Below are positions 113 to 43,718 of a stretch of DNA of 46,399 bases, in pieces. The position numbers and the translations under genes were made by a program. The notes beneath the pieces were generated by a model. That model worked only from the letters and a program-made list of their open reading frames with translations. It searched no databases and was not told where the DNA came from. Origin of the DNA: Patescibacteria group bacterium (GTDB taxonomy: Bacteria > Patescibacteriota > Saccharimonadia > Saccharimonadales > Saccharimonadaceae); the NCBI GenBank assembly GCA_004322265.1, contig SCSZ01000034.1, positions 1 to 46,399 of the forward strand, given 5' to 3'. The stretch's first letter is position 1; each line of letters begins with the position of its first letter.

Positions 113-370
113 ATGCGTAGGTTAAATCATGAAGAGGCACTGAGGAAGTGGAAAGAAAGCTCAATGACTGGAGGAGCCATGCATTTAAGCCATGATGAAA
201 CCGCGAAATACCAGAAAGAATATGATGCCGTGATTCCCCATACGATCGCGGTGCGGCATATCCGGAGAATGAAGCCGGTCGCAATGCCGTCCTGGTCGTG
301 GGTGGATTTGATCCTCCTTCTTTGCATCGGGGGATGGGTGTGGATGTTTCTTGTTATCTTTTTGTGGTGA
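113..370 (+). CDS. small C-terminally anchored membrane protein
   Basis: An 85-residue protein with GGAGG eight bases before its ATG. The N-terminal two thirds is hydrophilic; the last 26 residues (SWSWVDLILLLCIGGW onward) form one hydrophobic, tryptophan-rich segment that should be a membrane anchor. The first eight residues, MRRLNHEE, and the DNA around the start are repeated at the 38-residue gene at 1215, which also ends in a membrane segment, so the two are paralogues or share a copied leader. It lies directly before an NNGGC array. Function unknown. Confidence 0.6.
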   Translation: MRRLNHEEALRKWKESSMTGGAMHLSHDETAKYQKEYDAVIPHTIAVRHIRRMKPVAMPSWSWVDLILLLCIGGWVWMFLVIFLW

Positions 371-475
371 GAGGCACGGCAGGGCGTGGCGCGGCTTGGC
401 GAGGCGGGGCGGGGCAAGGTACGGCAAGGCGGGGCGCGGCTTGGCGTGGCGCGGCAGGGCGTGGCGCGGCGAGGA
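371..475. repeat. NNGGC pentanucleotide array, 21 units
   Basis: From 371 the sequence splits without a slip into 5-base units of form NNGGC (gaggc, acggc, agggc, gtggc, gcggc, ttggc and so on). Only one internal unit (aaggt, 416-420) and the last (gagga) depart. The first two bases vary freely while GGC is fixed, so it is not a simple microsatellite. The 5-base period argues against coding. It begins right after the stop codon of the 113 gene and ends in an AT-rich stretch before the 519 gene. A second, shorter array is at 1122. Confidence 0.92.
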
Positions 476-518
476 TTTTAACTTATTGGGCACACGGTTA
501 AAGAGGAGTAAATGAAAA

Positions 519-1118
519 ATGAAAATAAAGCAAAGCGCGACACTCATAGAATATGTGACGAGAAACATTCGGCTGGAAGGTCTGACGGATATCATGTTCG
601 ACCGGTATTCCGGGGACAACGATACGAAACTGGAACCGCATCAGAAGCTCTATTTCGCTCCGGGAAATACCAAGGCTATTGGCATACCGGCATTAAATAT
701 CATTTCATTCTTATCGGCCCACAACACGAATTCAGCGCCGAAGAGATTGCGGGACAAAAGAAAATTTAAGGATATTGCTAATGCAAATTTATCTTTTGTC
801 TCCATCCAGCAGGTTTTTATTCCATTGTTGAAGGGAAAGGAGCAAATCATTTTTGGAAAGTTTGAAAGGGATGTTGATTCAAAGTCGGGCATCTATATTC
901 ATCGATCCGTAGCGCGGCTCGATAAGGGGATTCCTAACCCCAAGGTCAGGCCGGTAGTTCCGTTGCCATGGGCGCTTGAGTTTGAGTTGACAATTTCCCC
1001 GAATAAGGAAATTCAGGAACAGGAGATATTAAACCTGATGGAAGAGGGCGGAAGAGCGTTAGGGCTCGGAACGTTTAGGGGCGTGTTCGGAAAGTTCAAA
1101 GTCGTTAAATGGGAATAA
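519..1118 (+). CDS. conserved phage protein of unknown function
   Basis: A 199-residue protein. AGAGGAG at 501-507 would serve an ATG at 512 or at 519; the 519 frame is the long one and looks like a folded protein. Recognisable segments are MFDRYSGDN near residue 26, an IYIHRSVARLDKGIPNPKVRP block, and a glycine-rich C-terminus (GLGTFRGVFGKF). I recall similar proteins in environmental phage contigs without a function. The glycine-rich end vaguely recalls the G-rich loop of RAMP-fold proteins, which is only a suggestion. It sits between the two NNGGC arrays in the early operon. Confidence 0.8.
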   Translation: MKIKQSATLIEYVTRNIRLEGLTDIMFDRYSGDNDTKLEPHQKLYFAPGNTKAIGIPALNIISFLSAHNTNSAPKRLRDKRKFKDIANANLSFVSIQQVFIPLLKGKEQIIFGKFERDVDSKSGIYIHRSVARLDKGIPNPKVRPVVPLPWALEFELTISPNKEIQEQEILNLMEEGGRALGLGTFRGVFGKFKVVKWE

Positions 1119-1121
1119 AAC

Positions 1122-1176
1122 CGGGCGAGGCAAGGCTGGGCATGGCCTGGCACGGCGAGGCAAGGCGCGGCGAGGG
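1122..1176. repeat. NNGGC pentanucleotide array, 11 units
   Basis: Eleven consecutive 5-base units: cgggc, gaggc, aaggc, tgggc, atggc, ctggc, acggc, gaggc, aaggc, gcggc, gaggg. As in the array at 371, GGC is constant and the first two bases vary, and it ends in gcggc-gagg followed by TTTAA-like sequence. It starts just after the stop codon of the 519 gene and precedes the MRRLNHEE gene at 1215. Confidence 0.92.
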
Positions 1177-1214
1177 TTTAATTTATGAAAACTTGCATTT
1201 CGATAAGGTGAAAA

Positions 1215-1331
1215 ATGCGTAGGTTAAACCATGAAGAGCGCCGGAAAAGAATTACACTGGAAGAGATTTTGGTTGTCGGGGCAACCATTTGTGTCTGCGC
1301 GATGGTTGGGATTGCAGTTTATCTTTGGTAG
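1215..1331 (+). CDS. 38-residue membrane peptide, paralogue of the 113 gene
   Basis: The ATG is preceded by AAGGTG. The peptide starts MRRLNHEERRKR and continues as one hydrophobic helix (ILVVGATICVCAMVGIAVYLW) to a TAG stop. The first eight residues and 33 bases around the start match the 113 gene with one mismatch. The DNA copy, the binding site and the membrane helix make this a credible small gene. Function unknown. Confidence 0.65.
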   Translation: MRRLNHEERRKRITLEEILVVGATICVCAMVGIAVYLW

Positions 1332-2516: not shown

Positions 2517-3149
2517 ATGGAGAAATCGGAAAGCATTAAAGAACTTTCGGTGGCCCTCGCGAAGGCCCAAGCCGAGATGGAACCGGCAAAAAAAGAGAGC
2601 GAGAACCCATTTTATCGCAGTAAATATTCCGACCTCGCGAGCGTCTTGAACGCCAGCCGGAAAGCGCTGTCCAAGCACGGGCTATCCGTCATTCAGCCGG
2701 TGGAGATGGAGGGGGATTTTTATTTTATCGAAACGGTGCTCTTGCACGAAAGCGGGGAATGGATATCGAGCCGGTTGAAAATCACGCCGATGAAGCAGGT
2801 GAAGGAATCCGGATGGGCGCCCTCGCCCGATCCGCAGAGCATCGGGGTTGCGATTTCCTACGGGCGTCGCTATGCATACCAGGCCATGATTTGCGGCGCG
2901 GCGGAAGACGATGACGGGAATCAAGCGTCCGGGCTGGAGAAAGAGACGAACGAGGAGCTTGATAAAGAGGTCGAGCGGGGTGACCAGTCGGTCTGCCCAT
3001 GCGGAGAGAAGCTAAATGAAAAGAGCATCGCTTATTATGCCGCCCATCCGACCTACGAGCCCCTCTGCTTTGCCTGCTCAACGCGGAAGAAAAACAAGGC
3101 TCCCTACGGCTTCAACAGGCCGAAGGATCGCTCCGCGGAGGGGGCATAA
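2517..3149 (+). CDS. erf: ERF-family single-strand annealing protein
   Basis: A 210-residue protein in the usual ERF size range. It has the ERF core: ENPFYRSKYSDLASVL near residue 30, LSKHGLSVIQPVE near 55, SIGVAISYGRRYA near 110 and AEDDDGN near 130. The C-terminus adds a four-Cys zinc site (CPCGEK and CFAC). ERF proteins anneal complementary single strands in phage recombination and genome circularisation. The gene forms a unit with the Gp157-like gene starting at the next base. Confidence 0.92.
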   Translation: MEKSESIKELSVALAKAQAEMEPAKKESENPFYRSKYSDLASVLNASRKALSKHGLSVIQPVEMEGDFYFIETVLLHESGEWISSRLKITPMKQVKESGWAPSPDPQSIGVAISYGRRYAYQAMICGAAEDDDGNQASGLEKETNEELDKEVERGDQSVCPCGEKLNEKSIAYYAAHPTYEPLCFACSTRKKNKAPYGFNRPKDRSAEGA

Positions 3150-3653
3150 ATGAAGCCCCTATACGAAATCGCCGACGAGATCCGGCAGCTCGCGGAAGAA
3201 ATCGAGAACAACGATGGCGTTCTCACCGAGGATTTAGAGGCCCGGCTTGATCAGCTCCCGATGGATTTTGAGGCGAAGGGTCTCAACGTCGGGCTGTGGA
3301 TTCGGAATATCCGGGCCGACCGTGAGAAGATCAAGGAAGAAATAGATCGGCTGAGGGCAAAACTGAAATCCGCTGAGGCGAACGAGCAGAGGGCGCGGGA
3401 CTATCTTCTACACTGCATGTTAGGAGCCGGGATCGAGAAGATTAAGCATCCGGTCTTTACCGCGTCGGTATGCGCCGGAAAGGAAAAGATTGATGATGAG
3501 ATCGATATCGCCCAACTGCCGGAGGAGTACAAAGAAGTGGTGACAACAGTGACCCCGAAAAAAAAGGAAATTCTCGACCTTTATAAAAATACCGGGGAGG
3601 TTGTGACAGGCTGCAAGATCGTCAAAGGGAATCCGTACCTGACAATACGATAA
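3150..3653 (+). CDS. Gp157-like (Sipho_Gp157) protein
   Basis: A 167-residue protein. Pattern: N-terminal helix (LYEIADEIRQLAEEIE), a charged coiled coil in the middle (KIKEEIDRLRAKLKSAE), then the short beta motifs typical of the family, including DIAQLPEEY near residue 125 and VTPKKKEILDLYK near 137. Relatives commonly sit beside ERF or RecT genes and have been linked to inhibition of host nucleases. It starts one base after the ERF stop codon, as expected for that pair. Confidence 0.88.
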   Translation: MKPLYEIADEIRQLAEEIENNDGVLTEDLEARLDQLPMDFEAKGLNVGLWIRNIRADREKIKEEIDRLRAKLKSAEANEQRARDYLLHCMLGAGIEKIKHPVFTASVCAGKEKIDDEIDIAQLPEEYKEVVTTVTPKKKEILDLYKNTGEVVTGCKIVKGNPYLTIR

Positions 3654-42724: not shown

Positions 42725-42752
42725 AAAGTGGGACAGTGGGACAAAATCGCTA
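42725..42752. repeat. third GTGGGACA repeat (possible attP arm site)
   Basis: AAAGTGGGACAGTGGGACAA, then AATCGCTAG, matches the 42-bp repeat except for the loss of two bases between the GTGGGACA words and some changes. It lies on the right of the attP core and runs into the stop codon of the integrase. Confidence 0.7.
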
Positions 42753-43718
42753 GAACCGGAGACGGTCAGCAGCTCTCTTTTTCGCCACATAAAGCACCTT
42801 TGTATATCGCTCGGTCATTCGGGTATCAGCATGGCCCAGCAGCTCGGAGACCATCTTGAGGTTCTCCCCTGCGGCGAGCAGGTAGGTTGCGAAGGAGTCC
42901 CGGAGCCGATGGAGCTTTCCTCCTTTGATTTCCGCCCGGCGACAGGCCCAGGAAAACAAGTCAGACACCGTGTCAGGATGGATCGGGAGGACATATTCAG
43001 AGGTGCGCGGGAGAAGATCTAAGACGGCTTTGACCTTTCTTGAAATCGGGATGATCTTTTCGGGCCCCTCCTTTGATTTCCGAACGATAAAATAGCCGTC
43101 TTTCACATCTTCCCATTTAAGGTGGTTTGCGATCTCCCCCCGGCGGCACCCTGTATAAAGATACAGTCTCCAGATCAGGCGCATGAATTTGGTGGACGTC
43201 CTCCAGATTTTGATGATCTCGCCCATCTCAAACGGCTTTGGCAGCTTCTTGTCGGTTTTCGGCCCCTTGACCCCTTTAAGCGGAGAGACAGCCAGGTCCC
43301 CGTCCATGACCGCCTCATTGAAGAAATTCCGGATTGTGTTGAGGTATCTCTTGACGGAGGTGGGGGCCAGGCCGTCGCTGATGGCGGCGATAAATTGCTT
43401 GATCCCCTTCTGATTGATCTCGTTCGCCCGGCAATCTTCCCCGAAATGCTTCTTGAGAAGGGAGAGGGCGCGGACATCGACCTGGTAGGTGTCATGGCTT
43501 TTATTTGATTTTGAATAGACTAGATAACCCGAGACGAGTTCCCCAAGCAAGGCCGTCGGCTTTCCCTTTTTCGAGGCGACGCCGTGTTTCTTGAGGTATT
43601 CAACGGCCTTTTTCTTGGCTTCTTCCCGGTCGGTCTGGCCGGTGGAGAGCTTGCCAAGGCCGTATTCCCGAAGGTCGGCATACCAATAGGGGGATTCAGG
43701 CCGGTGGCGAAGCTTCAT
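42750..43718 (-). CDS. int: tyrosine integrase
   Basis: A 322-residue site-specific recombinase. Catalytic residues: Arg192 (YTGCRRGE), Lys near 214-216, His270 and Arg273 (LHRLRDSF), His296 (LLGHAD) and Tyr305 (TERYTKV). Residues 55-145 are a SAM-like core-binding domain; the N-terminus is an arm-binding domain. Neighbouring attP overlaps tRNA-Val. Its ATG overlaps the stop of the outer-membrane gene, so both are expected on one leftward mRNA. Confidence 0.93.
   Translation of the reverse strand: MKLRHRPESPYWYADLREYGLGKLSTGQTDREEAKKKAVEYLKKHGVASKKGKPTALLGELVSGYLVYSKSNKSHDTYQVDVRALSLLKKHFGEDCRANEINQKGIKQFIAAISDGLAPTSVKRYLNTIRNFFNEAVMDGDLAVSPLKGVKGPKTDKKLPKPFEMGEIIKIWRTSTKFMRLIWRLYLYTGCRRGEIANHLKWEDVKDGYFIVRKSKEGPEKIIPISRKVKAVLDLLPRTSEYVLPIHPDTVSDLFSWACRRAEIKGGKLHRLRDSFATYLLAAGENLKMVSELLGHADTRMTERYTKVLYVAKKRAADRLRF

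Follow-up and report, generated by a model that had tools for sequence, protein, structure and literature searches.

The VIPR system, a very recent find that was proposed to lie at the root of the CRISPR RAMPs, was described in a 2026 preprint and is composed of a Vipr protein of about 20 kD, a member of the CRISPR RAMP superfamily, and of guide RNAs termed vrRNAs (PMC13142463). Each vrRNA consists of alternating GGY motifs and NN pairs followed by a constant, folded 3′ tail; the preprint gives 9–16 as the number of repeats and reports that double-stranded DNA is recognized by the NN pairs, a single base being passed over from each pair to the next (PMC13142463). VIPR systems are encoded mostly by phages or prophages. 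An accessory gene, vap, is found "typically", not always, beside vipr (PMC13142463). The Vipr of the Escherichia phage SUSP1, whose VIPR system belongs to type II among types I–VII, was studied experimentally and reads double-stranded DNA (PMC13142463). The preprint served here as a lead, which was then tested.

The DNA considered here, referred to as the window, is the whole analysed stretch of 46,399 nucleotides. It belongs to a temperate phage, as indicated by genes of an integrase (42750–43718), terminase, portal and head proteins. The same 60-bp repeat unit is present at both contig ends (1–92 and 46278–46399), and the contig may thus be circular or terminally redundant. Near the left end two pentamer arrays enclose a small gene (Table 1). 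The arrays are almost certainly two VIPR guide RNA (vrRNA) genes of this phage, with Vipr encoded by the gene between them.

Table 1. Features of the locus; the arrays and tails are named according to the VIPR reading
Feature	Position	Strand	Description
85-aa ORF	113..370	+	C-terminus hydrophobic; lies immediately 5′ of array 1; without a family match
vrRNA array 1	371..475	+	20 GGY motifs (19 GGC, 1 GGT) alternating with NN
Putative start of constant 3′ tail, array 1	464..481	+	GCGGCGAGG then ATTTTAA, end common to array 2
vipr gene	519..1118	+	199 aa, Vipr RAMP-fold protein, between arrays 1 and 2
vrRNA array 2	1122..1175	+	10 GGC motifs alternating with NN, terminating in GCGGCGAGG
Putative constant 3′ tail of vrRNA 2	1176..1200	+	GTTTAATTTATG...; inferred by analogy with array 1
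38-aa ORF	1215..1331	+	3′ of array 2; starts with the same 8 residues, MRRLNHEE, as ORF 113–370

The two short ORFs that flank the locus share, in addition to these eight residues, the DNA just upstream of the MRRLNHEE start. Further downstream lie ORFs 1343–1963 and 1987–2271, each built of a 22-aa repeat that is nearly the same every time (66-bp units; 8.6 copies in the first ORF and 3.6 in the second); in Pfam they match leucine-rich repeat variants very weakly.

Two arrays in strict five-base phase

An earlier note on this DNA had claimed NNGGC pentamers in phase at two places, and this was confirmed, as 20 and 10 motifs stand at exact 5-base spacing. The motif run of array 1 covers positions 373–470, and 21 units are obtained if "ga" in front of it and GAGGA behind it are included; the motifs of array 2 span 1124–1171, and there are 11 with the trailing GAGG. 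A fixed motif every five bases does exist, but it is GGY and not the constant GGC originally proposed, since GGT is found in array 1 (only at 418–420) and among relatives. The NN pairs follow the order AC AG GT GC TT GA GG GG AA (GGT) AC AA GG GC TT GT GC AG GT GC in array 1 and GA AA TG AT CT AC GA AA GC in array 2. The reported position just past stop codons holds as well: array 1 begins directly 3′ of TGA 368–370 and array 2 begins 5 bases past TAA 1116–1118. So does the common end followed by TTTWA-like sequence, the terminus GCGGCGAGG being continued by ATTTTAA in array 1 and by GTTTAAT in array 2. This 3′ end is near-constant also beyond the window, where the last two to three NN pairs of relatives' arrays are mostly AA or GA and a T-rich stretch comes after them.

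Such regularity is not expected by chance. In 100 simulated sequences for each of the Markov orders 1, 2 and 3 the longest period-5 run of GGC reached at most 3–4 units (means 2.3–2.6), while the observed runs are 9 and 10 units in array 1 (20 with the GGT bridged) and 10 in array 2. With the arrays left aside, the window holds no run of any 3-mer longer than 8 units at periods 4–15, and the rest of its 886-kb assembly has no similar array. Rfam gave no match, and a scan for promoters and terminators yielded signals at chance level only.

The Vipr protein and its linkage to the arrays

ORF 519–1118 encodes a Vipr protein, a small RAMP homologue with an RRM core and a glycine loop (G-loop). Searches of this ORF in Pfam and PADLOC gave no match; an ATG at 512 lies in a different frame. 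The SUSP1 Vipr was identified as ALH47069 through its flanking GGY arrays, and the PDB entry 36pp, "SUSP1 Vipr protein", matches ALH47069 with an E-value of 2.2e-130. In the C-terminal G-loop region, 45 aa of the product of ORF 519–1118 align with SUSP1 Vipr at 36% (E 1e-7), and a family profile built from 52 relatives found a single match in the PDB, again 36pp (E 1.3e-4). When an HMM was seeded with the SUSP1 and Donkeykong proteins and the window's own clade was left out, ORF 519–1118 was the sole match in the window (E 1.6e-6). The family phrog_4652, of unknown function, matches SUSP1 Vipr over its full length (E 1.4e-96) and gp49 of the Mycobacterium phage Donkeykong (E 1.7e-58), while its match to ORF 519–1118 is weak and limited to residues 149–195 (E 9e-7), which assigns the ORF to a divergent clade. 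Outside the C-terminal part, sequence comparison with SUSP1 Vipr reveals no clear homology. For the AF2 model (pLDDT 89.6) the top listed Foldseek matches are type III and VII CRISPR RAMPs (Csm3, Cmr), and in VIA the best alignment, with Csm3, reaches Z 12.0 over 159 residues (rmsd 3.4).

The pairing of arrays with vipr was followed in both directions. Starting from the protein, GGY/NN arrays were found in 69 of the 71 viral-contig relatives, one to eight per locus, nearly all of them immediately 5′ or 3′ of vipr and in the same orientation as the gene. Starting from DNA only, the pattern GGC(NNGGC)7 was found in at least 120 stretches of the viral collection. Among the matches listed, 84 of 120 such stretches encode a Vipr homologue, and the array lies on the vipr strand in 320 of 329 cases and within 1.5 kb of vipr in 319 of 329. 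The DNA pattern alone therefore suffices to find such systems, at a rate of 84 in 120 among the listed matches. In the other 36 listed loci (e.g., L019, L080 and L081) GGC/NN arrays are present and no Vipr homologue was detected in the stretch; these stretches may be incomplete, may carry more distant Viprs or may hold unrelated repeats.

The locus adds a divergent clade to VIPR. Viral contigs from the environment contain 71 relatives, but tblastn of the window Vipr against 50,697 phage records detected nothing. The named bacteria with loci of the clade are Paraburkholderia phenoliruptrix LMG 22037 and Candidimonas nitroreducens SC-089; it also occurs in MAGs of Methylococcaceae and Planctomycetota. 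Some loci deviate from the simple arrangement. At least 11 successive arrays precede one vipr in a Planctomycetota MAG (L274, 1537–2822), with a recurring spacer that carries a TTTTGATCGCATT-like motif. One viral contig (G007; L227 18971–19849 and L228 15363–16004) apparently has two Vipr genes, one of the window's clade and the other closer to SUSP1 (E 6.5e-23). In Donkeykong, gp48 (L135, 2323–2709), which lies beside the Vipr homologue gp49, is annotated as "hypothetical protein" and is largely a GGC/NN array, the CDS call probably being an error.

The linkage bears on the idea that the arrays act as DNA. According to it, a phage protein that binds DNA would use the GGC motifs, one per half helical turn, as a ladder, be it in replication, in partition or at a recombination site. 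The strict 5-bp phase of the motifs would suit such a ladder, as would the recombination genes just downstream of the arrays (ERF, 2517–3149; Mu Gam-like, 3150–3653), yet a ladder would not account for an orientation fixed to one gene in 320 of the 329 listed arrays, for the fold of CRISPR RNA-binding RAMPs in the product of that gene, for an array number that varies between one and eight per locus, or for NN pairs that are near-random and differ between otherwise identical phages in the manner of programmable content. A DNA element is hence very improbable, and the protein-binding ladder and the recombination site raised in the earlier note are both set aside. Its third option, an RNA element, gains support, since the adjacent gene encodes a CRISPR-RAMP-fold homologue of the guide-RNA-binding protein of VIPR.

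Constant GGY motifs and variable NN pairs

Motif and entropy counts were made on 142 distinct arrays with a cut-off of 8 motifs. Among about 2,620 motif positions GGC occurs 2297 times and GGT 125 times, together 2,422, whereas the NN pairs in the body of the array are near-random (entropy 3.6–3.8 of 4 bits). The two pairs that precede the final motif are mostly AA or GA, and their entropy is lower, at 2.0–2.5 bits. The suspicion that GGC is under selection while the other two bases vary is in this way upheld for GGY. Array lengths among relatives extend from the cut-off of 8 up to 65 motifs; single in-phase arrays of 50, 64 and 65 motifs (L140, 1294–1571 and 2286–2628; L143, 3609–3976) go far past the reported 9–16 repeats (PMC13142463) and are possibly overlapping guides.

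Pairs of closely related loci indicate how the arrays change. Nothing separates L200 from L201 over vipr and its upstream flank (3,560 of 3,560 bases identical), yet in one array 4 of 24 NN bases are changed and 0 of 39 GGY bases. The flanks of L183 and L185 are 99.7% identical and their arrays differ by whole-unit duplications; L170 and L171 differ in unit number. From the differences in L183/L185 and L200/L201 it follows that array length shifts by in-register gain or loss of units and that NN pairs change under fixed GGY. Between loci that are otherwise the same, the changes are confined to NN bases or to whole units. With such near-identical loci and altered arrays at hand, the question of how VIPR guides change becomes directly testable.

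The same pairs were used to weigh the possibility that the arrays are a satellite of five-base units which evolves neutrally and has spread through slippage and unequal recombination. Such a satellite would gain whole units, as in L183 versus L185, would differ in unit number, as in L170 versus L171, and could leave the weak 9-unit self-similarity seen in array 1 (12 of 20 letters). It would also decay equally at GGC and at NN, which disagrees with 2,422 GGC or GGT among about 2,620 motif positions beside near-random NN, with the four NN and no GGY changes between L200 and L201, and with the tight linkage of arrays to vipr. A neutral origin is therefore extremely improbable. The exclusion of slippage in the earlier note was too strict with regard to whole units, which do duplicate, and stands for the changes of NN at fixed GGC.

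Proposed function and comparison with known systems

Under the preferred VIPR reading, and by analogy with the preprint (PMC13142463), the arrays would be expressed as RNAs that form a ribonucleoprotein with Vipr. Vipr subunits would line up along the vrRNA via the GGY motifs, and the NN pairs left free would pair with the bases of double-stranded DNA, with a single skipped target base between one pair and the next (NNxNNxNN); through this binding, genes of rival phages or prophages would be repressed. Counted against the VIPR reading are the target searches described below, which yielded no proven target, the restriction of clear sequence homology with SUSP1 Vipr to the C-terminal part, the 20 motifs of array 1, compared with the reported 9–16 (PMC13142463), and the fact that no conserved vap gene, nor any neighbour family common to most loci, was found across the clade loci; the commonest neighbour family, exonuclease-like by eye, is present in 14 loci at best.

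Targets were searched for under the 1-nt skip. Units 1–9 of array 1 (18 letters) have one exact match (18/18) in the viral collection, a sequence carried by two contigs; the 2-nt-skip control gave no match. The site lies in frame in a DnaB-like helicase gene (phrog_19, E 1.8e-112), and the skipped base falls at the third codon position. Since by our own estimate about one chance match is expected for an 18-letter pattern in a collection of this size, and the prior for a third-position skip is about one in three, the match is suggestive only: it weakly suggests that units 1–9 target a phage DnaB helicase gene, and it could be chance. Exact 1-nt-skip scans of the viral contigs gave no match for array 2, for units 10–18 of array 1, or for one Candidimonas array and one L201 array. 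With up to 3 mismatches, the window's own assembly holds no site for array 1 and one 3-mismatch place, at about chance level, for array 2; likewise, the 26-base guide of Candidimonas found none in 268 genomes of its family at up to 3 mismatches, and thirty viral records gave no match to units 1–12 of array 1. A pooled test of skip spacing in 2.8 Mb of fetched sequence showed no clear difference among skips 0–3 and no 1-nt excess. Codon-phase likelihood of the NN strings was best overall at skip 1, and it is not counted as evidence because shuffled arrays do equally well.

These searches, which gave no proven target for the clade, bear on whether a VIPR-type locus could work in a mode unlike that of SUSP1, e.g., RNA-guided against RNA or as a self-regulatory RNA, instead of DNA-targeted repression. 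The closest fold, that of Csm3, a subunit of RNA-guided, RNA-binding complexes, would agree with such a mode; against it, the homologous SUSP1 Vipr reads double-stranded DNA (PMC13142463), and the RAMP fold alone is uninformative on the substrate. A different mode is considered unlikely, and DNA-targeted VIPR is kept as the preferred reading.

With the RAMPs of type III and VII CRISPR systems (Csm3, Cmr, Cas7) the window Vipr shares the fold (VIA Z about 10–12), an RRM-like core whose last helix and strand are separated by a glycine loop, but its guide is built of 5-base units, unlike the long direct repeats and spacers of CRISPR. A tandem-repeat scan of the window found no CRISPR array near the locus, and the ORFs neighbouring vipr gave no match to Cas10 or other cas families. 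CRISPR-Cas type III identity is therefore not supported, neither a direct-repeat/spacer array nor further cas genes having been detected beside the RAMP.

The locus is a VIPR of a divergent clade within a known, very recent kind. It might tentatively be regarded as a distinct type, one not separately described in the preprint, characterized by a vap-free Vipr, long GGC/NN arrays (up to 65 motifs, L143) with several or overlapping guides, in-register unit duplication together with NN replacement, and possibly action against phage replication helicases. As in SUSP1, there is a single Vipr of about 200 aa with the RAMP fold and C-terminal G-loop homology, and same-strand GGY/NN arrays lie up- and downstream of vipr. 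In contrast to SUSP1, the motifs are mostly GGC and not GGT, array 1 is longer, with 20 motifs against the 5–13 intact ones of the detected SUSP1 arrays, the tail has a different sequence, and the window is without a recognisable vap partner.
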